Shown here: piece after piece, positions 51,276 through 58,651 of the stretch
Numbering within the stretch: the stretch's first letter is position 1
How the letters are laid out: each line of letters begins with the position of its first letter
Assembly (NCBI RefSeq): GCF_024218775.1
Contig: NZ_CP100404.1
Location: 2,728,001 to 2,792,000, forward strand
Length of the DNA: 64,000 nt
Source of the DNA: Haloarcula marina
Lineage (GTDB): Archaea > Halobacteriota > Halobacteria > Halobacteriales > Haloarculaceae
Direction of reading: 5' to 3'
The notes under the pieces: generated by a model
The model's database searches: none
What the model was told of the DNA's origin: nothing
What the model saw: the letters and a program-made list of their open reading frames with translations, nothing else
Program-made: the position numbers and the translations under genes

Positions 51276-52981
51276 CGCTCCTCTTACAGGGCGGTTTGGT
51301 CCTGCAGGGCGGGTCGACGACCGACGTCGTTGTCCGACTGCTCGCCCAGTTGCTCGGCATCGGCATCGCCGCCGCGGCCGCCGCGGCCGTCGTCGCGCTG
51401 GCGTACCGCTGGTACGTCCGCGAACGCGTCCCCTCGGGGCTGGGCATCCTCTTCGGGTTGAGCGTCGTCGCCGTCTACCTCGGCACGACCGGGGCGCTCG
51501 GCGAGGTCATCGGCGGACAGGAGGATGTGCTCGCCTCCAGCAGCGTCCTCCCGAACCTCGCGGCGTTCGCCGTCGGTGCGGCCGCGTCGTCGGTTGGCAC
51601 GCGCGTCGGCGACCGACTCGGGACGGACCTCTTCGCGGCGGCCGGCGGCCGGGACGTCGACGCCGACGTGAGCGAAATCGTCCAGACCGTCGGGCGCGTC
51701 ACCGCGGTCCACCTCCCCGAAGACATCGAAGACATCGTCGGCTACGACCCGGTCCCCAAGGCGACGAAAGAGACGCTCTCGGGCCGCCGGTTCCTCTTTC
51801 CCCGACGGTTGACGAAGAACGAACTGCGCGACCGACTCGTCACGCGCCTCAAGACGGACTACGGCGTCGGCCACGTCGACCTCGAACTCGCCGACAACGG
51901 GACCGTCGAGTTCCTCGCCGTCGGGTCACGCGCTGCCGGTATCGGACCGACGCTCCCGCCAGCGACCAACGCCGTCGCCATCCGCGCGAACCCGGCCAAC
52001 GCCGCGAGTTCGGGCGACCTCGTACAGGTGTGGGCGAGCGACCCGCTCCAGCGCGTCCTCACGGGCGAACTCCGCGGCGTCGTCGGGGACGTGGTGACCG
52101 TCGCCATCGACGCGGCGGACACGCAGAAACTCGACCCCGCGACGGAGTACAAACTCGTGACGCTCCCCGTGCAGGACCGGCCCGACCGGGAGTTCGCGTC
52201 GCTCCTCCGAGCGGCCGACGAGACGATGGACACCGTCACCATCGAGGCCGGGAGCGCCCTCGTCGGGCAGTCCGTCGGGTCGCTCGCCGTGACGGTCACC
52301 GCCATCACGCGCGAGGACGCCCAACCCGAGACGATTCCCTCGCGTGACCGCGTGCTCCGGGCGGGCGACGTGCTGTACGCCATCGCGACGCCGGACGCCC
52401 TCCGGCGGACCGAGGAGGCCGCCGTCGGTTCGGACGCGGCGGCGGGCGACGAGTCGGACTCGCCGACGGTAGCGACCGACGAGAACAACGAACCCGAGGA
52501 AGCCGAGAGCACGACAGAGACCCGGGACGCGGAGACGCCCGCGGACGACGAGCAAGCGGACCCGCTGGCCGCTATCGAGGACGATGACAGTGACGCCGAC
52601 GACGATGACGCTGACGTGTTCGACTCGCTCGACATCGAGGGGGAACCGACCGACGCGTCGCTACTGGACGACGAGACGGCCCCCGAACCCAAAGACGGCG
52701 TGGAAATCTGGGACCCGGACGAACGCGTTCCGGACCCGGACTCGGGGACGGAGGCGGAGGCGGAGGCAGACGGCGAGGCGGATGGTTCGGAGACGAACGC
52801 CGACGACAGCGGTGACGAGGGCGAACCGACGACGAACGCGGAGGACGACGACGACGGACCGGACGAAGACGCCGACGACGGACCGGACGAAGACGCCGAC
52901 GACGGACCGGACGAAGACGCCGACGACGGACCGGACGAGGATGCGAACGGCGGACCGGACGCGGACCGCGACAGGGAGTGA
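51272..52981 (+). CDS. Paralogous RCK_C membrane protein with acidic repeat tail
   Basis: 569 residues. Three N-terminal helices (to about 110), a middle domain (FPRRLTKNELRDRLVTRLKTDYGVGHVDLELADNGTVEFLAV, aligned with the same region of the upstream paralogue) and an RCK_C domain (about 310-385). The remaining 180 residues are extremely acidic, ending in DDGPDEDA repeats from a 24-nt DNA repeat. It is coupled to its paralogue by ATGA overlap. The tail is probably disordered; a role in salt adaptation is possible. Confidence 0.8.
   Translation: MTLLLQGGLVLQGGSTTDVVVRLLAQLLGIGIAAAAAAAVVALAYRWYVRERVPSGLGILFGLSVVAVYLGTTGALGEVIGGQEDVLASSSVLPNLAAFAVGAAASSVGTRVGDRLGTDLFAAAGGRDVDADVSEIVQTVGRVTAVHLPEDIEDIVGYDPVPKATKETLSGRRFLFPRRLTKNELRDRLVTRLKTDYGVGHVDLELADNGTVEFLAVGSRAAGIGPTLPPATNAVAIRANPANAASSGDLVQVWASDPLQRVLTGELRGVVGDVVTVAIDAADTQKLDPATEYKLVTLPVQDRPDREFASLLRAADETMDTVTIEAGSALVGQSVGSLAVTVTAITREDAQPETIPSRDRVLRAGDVLYAIATPDALRRTEEAAVGSDAAAGDESDSPTVATDENNEPEEAESTTETRDAETPADDEQADPLAAIEDDDSDADDDDADVFDSLDIEGEPTDASLLDDETAPEPKDGVEIWDPDERVPDPDSGTEAEAEADGEADGSETNADDSGDEGEPTTNAEDDDDGPDEDADDGPDEDADDGPDEDADDGPDEDANGGPDADRDRE
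52850..52969 (+). repeat. 24-bp in-frame tandem repeat
   Basis: Three exact 24-bp units (52850-52921) are followed by a variant (52922-52945) and a degenerate unit (52946-52969). Each unit encodes DDGPDEDA. Because 24 is a multiple of 3, copy-number change would alter the tail length without frameshift. Confidence 0.9.
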
Positions 52982-53320: not shown

Positions 53321-54226
53321 TTACGTCAGGTCCGCCGCCAGCACGAAGTCCGGCCAGTCGGCGAGGTCTGCCCGGACCGACGCCGCTTGTGCGACGTGGC
53401 GCGGCGTCTCCGGGATGAGTACGCGCGTGCCGTCGACGCCCAGTTCGGCGGCGTCGGTCCGAATCGCGTCGAACAGCGCCCGGGCGGCGTCGCGGTCGTC
53501 CCACGTCCCGACGGCGTACTCCGCCAGCGTCTCGTCGGCGGTGGGGTCGACCGTTTCACGGACCCGGCAGGCCATCCCGCGCGTGCCGTCCCCCTTGACC
53601 GCGAAGACTGCCTGTTCCTCCGCGAGACGGTGCAGGCGCTCGCGGGTCAACTCCGAGAGCGCCCACGTCTGTCCGGGGTCCAGCGCGAGTCCCGAAAGCG
53701 TCGTTCGCCCCTCGCTGCCGGTCCAGTAACTCCACGCCGCGGCGGGGTCGGCCTCGACGATGAGGCCGTCGCCGTCGGCCTCCGAGTCGGTCGCTCTCGG
53801 GGACGGGTGCGCCCACCGGAACGACGTAATCGGTTCGAACCCCGTGGTGATGGACTGGCCCAGACCGGCGTCGTTCCACGAGAACACCATGTTGCGGCCG
53901 ACGGTCGCCCCGCGGTCGCTTGCCCACTCGAACAGGTCGTGGACCATCGCCACGCCGAGTCCCTCGCCGCGGTGGTCGGGGTCGACCCGGATGCCCTGGA
54001 ACCACGCCTCGTGGTCGGTGAGCATGACCGCCTGACAGAGTCCGGCAGCGGTGCCGCCAACCTCGGCGACGACGGTGCGTTGGGTCGGGCCGTCGCTCTC
54101 GACCCACGACTCGAACACTTCGGGGATGTAGTCGACGGTGTCCTCGCGGTCGGCCCACACCTCCGTCGCGAAGGCAACGATGTCGTCGTAGTCGTCGAGA
54201 CGGGCCTGCCGGACGGTCGGAGACAT
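53321..54226 (-). CDS. GNAT acetyltransferase
   Basis: 301 residues, longer than a single GNAT domain. The N-terminal half carries acetyl-CoA motif A in QGIRVDPDHRGEGLGVAMV (about 77-95). The C-terminal half (after 155) has a second, degenerate GNAT-like unit lacking the V-x-x-R/Q-x-x-G/A loop. It acetylates an unknown amine. It converges on SAMP1. Start is ATG 54226. Confidence 0.85.
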   Translation of the reverse strand: MSPTVRQARLDDYDDIVAFATEVWADREDTVDYIPEVFESWVESDGPTQRTVVAEVGGTAAGLCQAVMLTDHEAWFQGIRVDPDHRGEGLGVAMVHDLFEWASDRGATVGRNMVFSWNDAGLGQSITTGFEPITSFRWAHPSPRATDSEADGDGLIVEADPAAAWSYWTGSEGRTTLSGLALDPGQTWALSELTRERLHRLAEEQAVFAVKGDGTRGMACRVRETVDPTADETLAEYAVGTWDDRDAARALFDAIRTDAAELGVDGTRVLIPETPRHVAQAASVRADLADWPDFVLAADLT

Positions 54227-54313
54227 ACGCTATCGGAGGTGCCGTGGCGACAAAAAGGCACGACTGGAGAGCGGCGGCCGTGCGAGGAACCCCATCTCAC
54301 GAGAAAGAGGGCG

Positions 54314-55933
54314 TCACTCGTCCGGCGGCGTGTAGCCCGACGAATCCAGTTCGGTAGTGTCGGGGACGTACAGGTTCCGTTCGATGTACGACCAGTCGTC
54401 GAAGCCGTTGCCAGTGCCGTCGGACGAATAGGTGTAGCTATCGGCGGGCCTATTGTAGTTCATCACGCTCCGGTACTCTGCATACGAGTACCGCTCGCTG
54501 TCGATGCCGTTGTAGCCGGTAGCTCTCAGACCGACCGAGTGGCCGAGTTCGTGCATTATCACCGACCCGGTGGCCGTGGACTGGTCTTTCACAATCATCG
54601 TGCCCTCACTGTGCACTCCCACGGCCCCGCCAAGGTCTGCATTGTCGACCAACAAGAGGTGGTGATAGCCGTAGCCCTCGTTGTCGAAGTACTCTCGCTC
54701 GTAGGCGCTCCACGTACCCTGGTCGAAGCCTTCCTCGTCGGGGATTCCTCGGTCGTCGACCACGAAGTGGAGGTTGATTCCGGTGGAACCGTCTGGGTTC
54801 GAAACGGGTGCCGCGGCGTAACTGTCTTCGATACGAGAGAGTCCACTCGTCGGAGCGCTCGTCCCGTCGACGACGTCCACCTCGACGTAGATGTCCGTTC
54901 TGAGCGGGTCCGCGCCGGGGTACCGGTCTGGATCGTTCACTTCGAGACCGTCGGGGATGCCGTCACCGTCGGTGTCGGCCGCCTTCGGGTCGGTCCCGAG
55001 CGAGAGTTCGACGGCGTCGGCCAGCCCATCGCCGTCCACGTCCCGTCTCGTCGGGTTCGTTCCTGCGTCGAGTTCTCTGTCGTCATCGAGTCCGTCGAAG
55101 TCGGAGTCCGCCTGTGTCGGGTTCGTGCCGTGGTCGGTGACCTCGGCGTCGTCGGTCAGGCCGTCCTCGTCGCTGTCGGCGACGAGCGGGTCGGTACCGT
55201 ATTCGACGAACTCTCGCCCGTCGGTGAGTCCGTCGCCGTCGGTGTCGGCCGCCGTCGGGTCGGTCCCCGCGTCGAGTTCAGCGTTGTCGCCCAGTCCGTC
55301 ACTGTCGGTGTCGGCCGCCGTCGGATCGGTCCCCGCGTCGAGTTCCGCACTGTCGGCCAATCCATCCTTGTCCGTGTCGGCCGCCGTCGGGTCAGTGCCG
55401 TGCTCGTCGACTTCGACGCCGTCACTCAGTCCGTCCTCGTCGCTGTCGGCGACGAGCGGGTCCGTCCCGTACTCTTCTACTTCCGTTCCGTCGACGAGTC
55501 CGTCGTCATCGGTATCTGCGACGAGCGGGTCGGTGTCGTACTCGTCGAGTTCCGCCCCGTCGGTTAGCCCGTCGTCGTCGGTGTCCGCGACTGCCGGGTC
55601 GGTACCGGCATCGAGTTCCGCACTGTCGTCGAGTCCGTCCCCGTCGCCGTCGGCGGCCGTCGGGTCAGTCTCGTGTTCGCGTACCTCTTCCGGGTCGGTG
55701 AGTCCGTCGCCGTCAGTGTCGGCGGTAGTTGGATCAGCACCGTTCGCCCGCTCCGCGCCGTCGTCGAGGCCGTCGCCGTCGGTGTCGGCGCTCAACGGGT
55801 CGGTCCCGGCCGTCAGTTCTGTCACCGCCGGGACGCTGTCCCCGTCGAGGTCGACGACGTTCGTCACACCCACGACACCCCCCGACGCGCCGACGAGGAG
55901 GACGACGAGCAGGACGCTCTTGAGCGCCGTCAC
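54314..55933 (-). CDS. Exported TSP3-repeat protein with metalloprotease motif
   Basis: 539 residues from GTG 55933. A hydrophobic N-terminal segment (LLVVLLVGASGGVVGV) is followed by 14 thrombospondin type-3-like calcium repeats of 22-23 residues (ADTDGDGLTD..EL..GTDP) spanning about 25-345. The final 190 residues hold HELGHSVGL (His461, Glu462, His465) and SVMNYN, a Met-turn-like motif. The usual third metzincin ligand (position 11 of the motif) is Ala, so the zinc geometry must be different or the site weak. The GTG overlaps the stop of the upstream exported protein (GTGA). Likely a calcium-dependent surface or secreted protease. Confidence 0.8.
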   Translation of the reverse strand: MTALKSVLLVVLLVGASGGVVGVTNVVDLDGDSVPAVTELTAGTDPLSADTDGDGLDDGAERANGADPTTADTDGDGLTDPEEVREHETDPTAADGDGDGLDDSAELDAGTDPAVADTDDDGLTDGAELDEYDTDPLVADTDDDGLVDGTEVEEYGTDPLVADSDEDGLSDGVEVDEHGTDPTAADTDKDGLADSAELDAGTDPTAADTDSDGLGDNAELDAGTDPTAADTDGDGLTDGREFVEYGTDPLVADSDEDGLTDDAEVTDHGTNPTQADSDFDGLDDDRELDAGTNPTRRDVDGDGLADAVELSLGTDPKAADTDGDGIPDGLEVNDPDRYPGADPLRTDIYVEVDVVDGTSAPTSGLSRIEDSYAAAPVSNPDGSTGINLHFVVDDRGIPDEEGFDQGTWSAYEREYFDNEGYGYHHLLLVDNADLGGAVGVHSEGTMIVKDQSTATGSVIMHELGHSVGLRATGYNGIDSERYSYAEYRSVMNYNRPADSYTYSSDGTGNGFDDWSYIERNLYVPDTTELDSSGYTPPDE

Positions 55934-57189
55934 CGTTCGAGCCCTCCGTAAACCTGCCCGAATCGGTCTAACTCCCGAGCAGCGTCGGCGTGGACGAGAC
56001 CGGGAACGTAGTCGTACGCGACTTCGTACACCGCGAAGTTGCCGTCGAACAGGCCGCCGTATCCATCGCTTCCGGGCGCGATATCGAAGACGTAGTTGCC
56101 GCCGCGGTCGCGAGCGAGTTCCATCACGCCAGCGAGATTCCGGAACCACTCGAACTCGACGTCGTCGTGGCGGTTGTATTCGAGCAGCGTTCGCGTCAAC
56201 ACCGTCGCGAAACCCGTGGTCAGGCCGATTCGTCCCTCGCGGTCGAAGTGTTGTGGAACGGGGTCGCAACCGATGTGGTTCACGAGTTCGACGACCGCCG
56301 TCTTCGCCGGTCCGAACGCGATCGATTGCCGGTTCCACCCTTCGGTGTGAAACAGGAGCGGATGGTGGAGCGAGTCCGGTCCGCGGTCCGCCTCCGCGTC
56401 CGGGTCGTCGGTGACCGACCACTCCTCGATGAGTGGATGCATCTGCAGCGACCCGTCCTCTGCGAAGCCGGTGGCCGTGAGCGTAAACGCTCGGAGTTCG
56501 TCGGCCTGTGGTGAGTAGACGAGTCCGACTTGCGTCCCGTCGTCACCGGTCGGCGTTATGGTGTTGTCGTCGTGGCCGTTGTCCATCGTGAAACTCCACG
56601 CGAGCACGTCGTACGTGGGGTGATACCGTCGGTAGGCCTCTCTGAGTATCGCCGTCTTCGCTCCAAAACGGCGGCCAGCGACAGCGTTGTCTATCGAGAT
56701 GAGCAGGCTGTGAGCGTAGTCCAGCGACGTACCGAAATCGTCCGCGTTCAGCCACGCCTCTCGGTCCCACTCTTTCGGTGCGTCCCGTCTGGCGTAGCGG
56801 AACCGTTCCGTCTTCGCTTCCTCGAACCGGTCGTTGTCGAACGCCTCGACGAACCGTCCGAGCGACCTTCCGGATGATTCGTCGTACTCCTGGTAGTTTC
56901 GCTCGCGGTAGAGTTTCAGCGCCTCGAAGTCGACCCCGTGGTCGTCTCGCTCGGCGTCAGTCTCGTACGCGAAGGCCGGATGGCTCTCGGTTAGCGGGCC
57001 GACATCTCCCACGAGGGCCGACAGTTCGTCCCGCCGCTCAGCGTCTCGAACCGGTGTCAAATCCCACCGATACTGGGCTGGCCGATTCCGGTCGGCCGCC
57101 TTCACAGAACCCGCGATTGCGCTGCCAGCCAGCGTCAATCCGACCGACCGAACGACCGCTCGCCGACTCACGGCGTTTCGATGTCGCAT
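55930..57189 (-). CDS. Tat-exported protein of unknown function
   Basis: 419 residues. A twin-arginine signal (SRRAVVRSVGLTLAGSAIAGS, cleavage near residue 31) implies folded export. The mature part is rich in aromatic residues and in His/Glu/Asp (for example FTMDNGHDDNTITPTGDDG and FHTEGWNRQSIAFGPAKTAVVELVNHIGCDP), with helices after residue 90. Two Cys are absent except one. I recognise no family. It is coupled to the TSP3 protease downstream by GTGA overlap, suggesting a common pathway (substrate, chaperone or partner). A TATA-like CGTTTATTA (minus, 57221-57229) lies about 36 nt upstream. Confidence 0.78.
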   Translation of the reverse strand: MRHRNAVSRRAVVRSVGLTLAGSAIAGSVKAADRNRPAQYRWDLTPVRDAERRDELSALVGDVGPLTESHPAFAYETDAERDDHGVDFEALKLYRERNYQEYDESSGRSLGRFVEAFDNDRFEEAKTERFRYARRDAPKEWDREAWLNADDFGTSLDYAHSLLISIDNAVAGRRFGAKTAILREAYRRYHPTYDVLAWSFTMDNGHDDNTITPTGDDGTQVGLVYSPQADELRAFTLTATGFAEDGSLQMHPLIEEWSVTDDPDAEADRGPDSLHHPLLFHTEGWNRQSIAFGPAKTAVVELVNHIGCDPVPQHFDREGRIGLTTGFATVLTRTLLEYNRHDDVEFEWFRNLAGVMELARDRGGNYVFDIAPGSDGYGGLFDGNFAVYEVAYDYVPGLVHADAARELDRFGQVYGGLER

Positions 57190-57220
57190 CTAGTTCTGTA
57201 CTCTCCTGACTGTCGAACTG

Positions 57221-57229
57221 TAATAAACG
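57221..57229 (-). promoter_or_regulatory. TATA box of the exported-protein operon
   Basis: On the minus strand CGTTTATTA is centred about 36 nt before the ATG at 57189. The spacing predicts an 8-10 nt leader, unlike the leaderless genes elsewhere in the window. Confidence 0.45.
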
Positions 57230-57289
57230 TTGATATGTCATGGACTGCTACATCGAGCGACTGGGTGGGTCACCCACCGGTCCCGGCGG

Positions 57290-58537
57290 TTAGAGCCACG
57301 GCGTCGACCGCCGCTGAATCTCGCCAGCCAGCGGTTCGGCCATCGCGTCGGCCACGTCGTCGGCGTTCGCCAGCGCCCACATCAGTTTCACCTTCGCGGT
57401 TCCGGGGAGCATGTCCTCACCCTCGATAACGCCCGCGTCGAGGAGGTCGCGGCCGGTGTCGTAGACCCGGTCACAGACGCGGCCTTCGATGCACTGGCTG
57501 GTCATCACGACCGGGATGTCGAGGTCCTCGATGACGGAAATCCACTCGGTGTTGACGTGGCCCAGTCCCGTCCCTTCCAGCACGATGCCGTCGGCCCCGT
57601 CGGCGGCGACTTCCAGCAGTTCCGTACTCATGCCGGGCGTGAACTTCACGAGTTCCACGTCGGTCGCGAGGTCCTCGTGGAGGGCGAGTTCGGTCTCGTC
57701 CCGCTTCGCGTACTCGCGGCGGAACGTGACCGCGTTGTCGCCGTCGGTGCTGTAGTCGACTTCGCCGAGCGGTTTCGCGCCGACCGTCCGGAAGGCGTCA
57801 CGGCGGGAGGTGTGGTTCTTCCGGACCCGGGTGCCCCGGTGGAGCGCACACCGGTCGTCGGATTCGTCGGCGTGCATGCAGACCAGCACTTCGGCGCAGT
57901 CGGATTTCGCGGCTTCGACGGCGCAGACGGCGTTCATCACGTTATCGGAGGAGGGGCGGTCCGCCGAGCGCTGACTGCCGGTGAAGACGATGGGAACCGG
58001 CGTGTCGAGCATGAAGGCCAGCGCGGAGGCGGTAAACTGCATCGTGTCCGTGCCGTGCATGACGACGACGCCGTCGGCCCCGGCCTCGATTTCCTCCCTG
58101 ACTGCGTCGGCGAGGTCCTGCCACACCGCGGGCGTCATGTTCTCCGAGAGGATGTTGGCGACGACGCGGCCGCGGTAGTTCGCCATCCCGGCGAGATCCG
58201 GCACCGCTCGAAGCACGTCTTCGGCGTCGAACTGGGCGGTCACCGCGCCGGTGCGGTAGTCGACGGTGGAGGCGATGGTCCCCCCGGTGGAGATGAGCGA
58301 CACCGTCGGGAGGTCGTCGTCGAACTCGACGGCGGAGCCGTCGTCCTCGTCCTGTGCGCTCTCGACGTCGTACACGTCCGATTCGAGGACTTCGACCGAC
58401 GACTCGTCGCGGTCGATGCCGACGTTGTACCCGCCGTCGAGTTTGACCACGAGGTGGTCGGGCGTGCTGGACGGGAGCAAGACGCCCTCGTAGGTCTGGT
58501 CCGCGCGGTCGACGCGGACCCGGTCGCCTGCGTTCAT
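57290..58537 (-). CDS. gatD: Glu-tRNA(Gln) amidotransferase subunit D
   Basis: 415 residues. An N-terminal beta-barrel domain (1-75, VRVDRADQTYEGVLLPSS) precedes an asparaginase-like domain with STGGTIAS (83-90) and MHGTDTM active-site threonines, GSQRSADRPSSDN and SQCIEGRVCDRVYDTGRDLL. This is the archaeal GatD, which releases ammonia from glutamine or asparagine for GatE to amidate Glu-tRNA(Gln). gatE is not in the window. The N-terminal extension and length distinguish it from a free asparaginase. Start is ATG 58537. Confidence 0.93.
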   Translation of the reverse strand: MNAGDRVRVDRADQTYEGVLLPSSTPDHLVVKLDGGYNVGIDRDESSVEVLESDVYDVESAQDEDDGSAVEFDDDLPTVSLISTGGTIASTVDYRTGAVTAQFDAEDVLRAVPDLAGMANYRGRVVANILSENMTPAVWQDLADAVREEIEAGADGVVVMHGTDTMQFTASALAFMLDTPVPIVFTGSQRSADRPSSDNVMNAVCAVEAAKSDCAEVLVCMHADESDDRCALHRGTRVRKNHTSRRDAFRTVGAKPLGEVDYSTDGDNAVTFRREYAKRDETELALHEDLATDVELVKFTPGMSTELLEVAADGADGIVLEGTGLGHVNTEWISVIEDLDIPVVMTSQCIEGRVCDRVYDTGRDLLDAGVIEGEDMLPGTAKVKLMWALANADDVADAMAEPLAGEIQRRSTPWL

Positions 58538-58651
58538 GCGCGTGGCTTTCCGCCGGCGGGACTTGAACCCATTTGTTTCGAGCGTCCGGCGGTCGGTCAT
58601 CGGGTCGGCAGCGGCACAAAGGCCATACGTCAGCCGAGCGAACCGACGAGT

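Follow-up and report, generated by a model that had tools for sequence, protein, structure and literature searches.

A metzincin-like domain with an unusual zinc motif forms the C terminus of B, one of two exported proteins encoded by overlapping genes in a 64,000-nucleotide stretch of the Haloarcula marina genome (here called the window; Table 1). The domain is most likely a variant that has not been described before and that scarcely occurs outside Halobacteria, and B itself is most likely a catalytically active zinc protease of the metzincin-like type, with a displaced aspartate as its third ligand. The pair lies in a genome of 3.74 Mb, on a contig of 3.36 Mb. We consider it reasonably probable that B is a divergent, haloarchaea-centered metzincin-like zinc endopeptidase, that the upstream protein, A, evolved separately, and that the two do not make up a conserved system. 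Counting against this explanation, overlapping translation would suit a functional A/B pair.

Domains of the B type were detected in 81 of the 342 sampled genomes. In a phylum-wide sample they were almost confined to Halobacteria, the clearest exception being genome G530 (E = 5.9e-19), and one match in a congener (C5:32941-33504) coincides with that on pNG500 of Haloarcula marismortui; no relatives of B were found in viral contigs. Homologues are labeled hypothetical protein in the public records seen, and the domain is unnamed in Pfam and NCBIfam. The domain, carried by about a quarter of the sampled genomes of the order, probably represents a family of secreted proteases whose zinc motif is unusual.

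Table 1. Features of the A/B locus (positions in the window)
Feature	Position	Strand	Description	Basis or conservation
Gene A	55930..57189	minus	419 aa, Tat-exported; haloarchaeal family without assigned function	translation
Gene B	54314..55933	minus	539 aa, GTG start, exported; TSP3 stalk plus metzincin-like domain	translation and Pfam
GTGA overlap	55930..55933	minus	start of B and stop of A	sequence
GGAGGG	55942..55947	minus	ribosome-binding sequence within the 3' end of A, 8 nt upstream of the B start codon	sequence
TTTATTA	57221..57227	minus	TATA-like, at -38 to -32 relative to the ATG of A; candidate promoter for both genes	sequence only
Tat signal peptide of A	57094..57189	minus	SRRAVVR, hydrophobic stretch, VKA-AD; without lipobox Cys	sequence
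B residues 4-24	55862..55924	minus	hydrophobic N-terminal segment (signal peptide or anchor)	sequence
B residues 27-340	54914..55855	minus	TSP3 calcium-repeat stalk, 14 repeats	PF18884 TSP3_bac, E=1.7e-62
B residues 342-539	54317..54910	minus	metzincin-like catalytic domain, ~198 aa	sub-threshold Pfam and PDB profile matches
HELGH, B 461-465	54539..54553	minus	putative zinc ligands H461 and H465, general base E462	invariant 36/36
G476-I-D478	54500..54508	minus	proposed third zinc ligand D478	D 36/36, G 35/36
SVMNY, B 489-493	54455..54469	minus	Met-turn	S, M, Y kept 35/36
GNAT-type gene	53321-54226		flanks the B side	name by sequence recognition
GatD-like gene	57290-58540		flanks the A side	name by sequence recognition

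The stalk of B scores 207 bits against PF18884 TSP3_bac, for which the cut-off is 25, in 14 stretches; the 14 repeats, the HELGH, and the SVMNY that the initial annotation had read in this protein are all present by Pfam and translation. Most homologues have 2 to 16 recognizable repeats ahead of the domain, and in a few distant ones the repeat pattern detects none. The architecture is not a product of chance, because the whole of it, stalk and C-terminal domain, recurs in many haloarchaea, with the C-terminal domains about 35 to 52% identical. Tandem TSP3 repeats are also found in the bacterial proteins CglD and MtsD, but their match with B is limited to the repeats and lies far below the cut-off. 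Two plus-strand open reading frames that run across the repeats (53387-55567 and 54891-56414) are most likely antisense artifacts of the GC-rich repeat.

At the place corresponding to the hydrophobic N-terminal segment of B, several relatives have a lipobox (L041, L062, L131, L155, L156, L158, and L170). In window B the segment may be removed as a signal or stay as an anchor; B would be exported through it and then be either secreted or held at the surface. The architecture reads most naturally as a protease carried on a calcium stalk and held at the membrane or cell surface, and this stalk, if rigid, acidic, and loaded with calcium as its repeats suggest, would keep the catalytic domain away from the membrane.

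In published metzincins, the third zinc ligand is a histidine or, rarely, an aspartate at a fixed place, three residues after the glycine. The residue at this canonical position in window B is Ala471, as had been pointed out from the sequence, and the column is variable across the family. The doubt about the ligand that had been attached to this alanine finds a probable answer in the alignment of 36 nonredundant homologues (<75% mutual identity; repeated with 35 sequences), in which an Asp further on, D478, is as invariant as H461, E462, and H465 (36/36 each). G468, G476, Y487, S489, M491, and Y493 are each kept in 35 of the 36, which gives the family the HExxHxxG pattern, complete at H461, E462, and H465 and missing its glycine once. 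The Asp stands in a G[IV]D motif 15 to 19 residues past the first His of HExxH, and a Met-turn-like S-x-M-[NS]-Y, recognizable as such by its residues alone, is found in 35 homologues, its Met 13 residues past D478. With 9 residues separating G468 from D478, B departs from the published metzincin consensus. The sole deviant, L161:5374-6375, is a TSP3 protein that has HELLH and an Asp and none of the other kept residues, the Met-turn included; it looks degenerate and is possibly inactive.

From the invariance of D478 across the family, we infer that it is probably the third zinc ligand, displaced by an insertion. Zinc in B would be held by H461, H465, and D478, with E462 as the base and M491 as the Met-turn methionine. 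A displaced Asp ligand is uncommon, though something of the kind is already known: the igalysins (M64), with HExxHxxxGxxD, have an Asp third ligand with altered spacing (PMC12237041). If D478 is indeed a ligand, metzincin chemistry would tolerate a displaced Asp, and proteins in dozens of genomes would gain a function. The alanine at the canonical third position, together with the fact that no family cut-off is reached, would also suit a catalytically dead metzincin-like adhesin or sensor carried on a stalk, with HELGH as a relic. Such a protein is nonetheless unlikely, because the four residues proposed for catalysis and zinc binding do not vary in any of the 36 homologues, even at identities of about 24 to 35%.

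Aspzincins are arranged as HExxH followed by G-x-D and have a GTXDXXYG motif. The HExxH and G-x-D of B resemble this arrangement, so that B might be an M35-like enzyme rather than a metzincin, with its third ligand an Asp about 15 to 19 residues past the first His. However, no M35/aspzincin model was matched among the Pfam hits at E<=0.1 of 35 B members, the PDB profile matches are to metzincins, and the Met-turn-like SxMNY is kept, all of which makes an aspzincin very unlikely.

A metzincin-like enzyme is what the remaining comparisons point to. In Pfam and NCBIfam scans, the window B catalytic domain gave sub-threshold matches only (Pfam M64, M57, M12B, and M10) and reached none of the curated family cut-offs. 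Among 35 B members scanned against Pfam, PF13582 Reprolysin_3 was matched by 31, Reprolysin_4 by 26, and Matrixin by 21, all weakly (best E, 5.8e-05). A profile of the B family run against PDB sequences placed adamalysins, ADAMTS-5, serralysin, MMP-1 collagenase, and snapalysin on top (best E, 0.0011). The initial view of B as an exported protein resembling zinc proteases is supported. The AF2 model of the B domain (11 sequences) was poor, with a mean pLDDT of 43.5, and Foldseek with this low-confidence model ranked chains of fragilysin, MMP, and ADAM17 among its best matches, at a nonsignificant E of 0.012 or worse. Judged by its sequence, B probably works like a metzincin; it does not count as an established member of the clan, since the canonical spacing of the ligands is absent and the fold model is of low confidence.

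The best sub-threshold matches are to the M12B adamalysins/reprolysins and the M10 matrixins/serralysins, with which B has in common HExxHxxG and a downstream Met-turn Met. Unlike these, B has no conserved His at +10 and has its Asp displaced by an insertion, and the overall similarity is very small. Igalysins (IgAse; PDB 3p1v and 4df9) are like B in having an Asp third ligand preceded by irregular spacing, and PF09471 (M64) is the best single-protein Pfam match of B, at 16.8 bits and below its cut-off of 26, with a weak PDB match as well. B differs from them in the insertion between HExxHxxG and G[IV]D and in domain size (about 198 against 313 aa). The small, secreted metzincin snapalysin (M7) also uses an Asp as its third ligand and matches the B family profile weakly (1c7k), but its Asp is at the canonical position and it has no stalk. 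In a tree of the B domain, window B received no clear placement.

Turning to the gene pair, we found the GTGA overlap between two genes for exported proteins, as well as their differing export signals (Tat in A, a hydrophobic N-terminal segment in B), to be just as the initial annotation had described them. The overlap, the GGAGGG, and the TTTATTA make co-transcription and translational coupling plausible: A and B may share one promoter, and they are probably translationally coupled on one message. RNA folding at the A/B junction showed nothing special (z=+1.07).

The N terminus of A, MRHRNAVSRRAVVRSVGLTLAGSAIAGSVKA-AD, has by eye the twin-arginine signal SRRAVVR and hydrophobic stretch of a Tat substrate and no lipobox Cys; among its relatives, one carries a Tat annotation and two give weak PF10518 matches. 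No match to A was found in Pfam, NCBIfam, PDB, or PADLOC, and PHROG gave a single nonsignificant one, in keeping with the earlier statement that A belongs to no recognized family. A transglutaminase-like fold (a helix and then four strands) was considered and dropped, there being no profile match. The AF2 model from the single sequence reached a pLDDT of 34, at which fold matches are meaningless.

Relatives of A fall into a near group, 39 to 57% identical to window A over the mature protein, and a distant one. The closest orthologue, in G383, is 57% identical and not a lipoprotein; at about 39 to 45% identity are Tat lipoproteins in G104, G269, G080, G299, G151, and G484, and a lipobox Cys stands at the equivalent site in the nearest relatives other than G383. 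The distant relatives (17 to 24%) include plasmid-borne proteins of Haloferax and Halobacterium as well as others encoded elsewhere, and some of them carry an extra N-terminal region. The family is sparse, often plasmid borne, and, apart from window A, made up mostly of stand-alone Tat lipoproteins, whereas window A has no lipobox Cys and sits on a 3.36-Mb contig. Third-position GC is 0.40 to 0.62 in most A homologues, low for haloarchaea, which suggests that the family is mobile cargo; no relatives were found in viral contigs and phages. On the Haloferax/Halobacterium plasmids, L059, L060, and L061 are long lipoproteins in which the extra N-terminal region is fused to an A-type domain, and their close copies have a low third-position GC of 0.42 to 0.57. 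A relative in G247 (L056:7970-9266) is split into three frames and is a probable pseudogene.

It had been proposed that A is the dedicated partner of B in a surface proteolytic system, a proposal to be abandoned should the orthologues lie apart in most genomes. They do. A was found in 8 of the 342 sampled genomes, weak and broken copies included, and a profile search, counting only A-type matches that reach past the signal region, gave about 20 of 392 Halobacteria genomes; the raw tally of 312/392 was set aside as mostly Tat-lipobox/linker matches at profile positions 1 to 90. Set against the 81/342 genomes with B, these counts lend no support to a conserved system, nor is there the conserved neighborhood expected of a protease and its dedicated partner: no A was found near 50 B loci, and no B domain within the few kilobases examined around 19 A homologues, with a run of N beside the G383 copy. 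Where a genome holds both types (G080, G026, G209, G270, and G365), they lie on separate contigs or a long way from each other. The pairing in the window appears incidental.

A dedicated module, in which A, produced from the same message as B, encounters it outside the cell as its substrate, chaperone, or inhibitor, draws on the GTGA overlap with its ribosome-binding site and on the export of both proteins. The G383 orthologue likewise is without a lipobox and is directly followed by 1,950 N (L107:5958-7907), a gap with room for the end of A and a B gene; no B was found elsewhere in G383 and no full A in other genomes of its genus. There is a haloarchaeal precedent in a secreted protease, of the serine type, that acts on a secreted precursor (PMC12893001). 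Against this stand the lack of a B domain in the surroundings of the other A homologues examined, the absence of A from most B genomes, and the separation in the five genomes named above, and we regard such a module as quite unlikely. A mixed history, with B a distinct metzincin family (HExxHxxG, insertion, G[IV]D, and SxM[NS]Y, in this order) on calcium stalks of variable length and A acquired in the window/G383 lineage as a co-translated extracellular substrate or regulator, is very unlikely.

We favor a history in which A, a separately evolved Tat-exported protein, would be co-transcribed and translationally coupled with B within one insertion. A and B together are a single local insertion between the GNAT-type and GatD-like genes. 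In many congeners these two genes are 46 to 150 bp apart (G322, 94; G349, 147; G343, 62; G131, 100; G233, 46); in others the spacing is 0.4 to 5.4 kb and is often filled by other genes for exported proteins. By eye, these inserts include one PQQ-propeller-like gene in L063 and three in a row in L064, lipoproteins in L065 and L066, and Tat proteins in L068 and L069. Across the genus, the GNAT-to-GatD interval (54227-57289 in the window) seems to be a hot spot. It has the look of a site of gene gain, and this would account for two unrelated exported proteins side by side. Beyond the GNAT gene, an acidic tandem repeat, DDGPDEDA (about 52850-52981, plus strand), forms the C terminus of a 603-aa open reading frame that ends at 52981.
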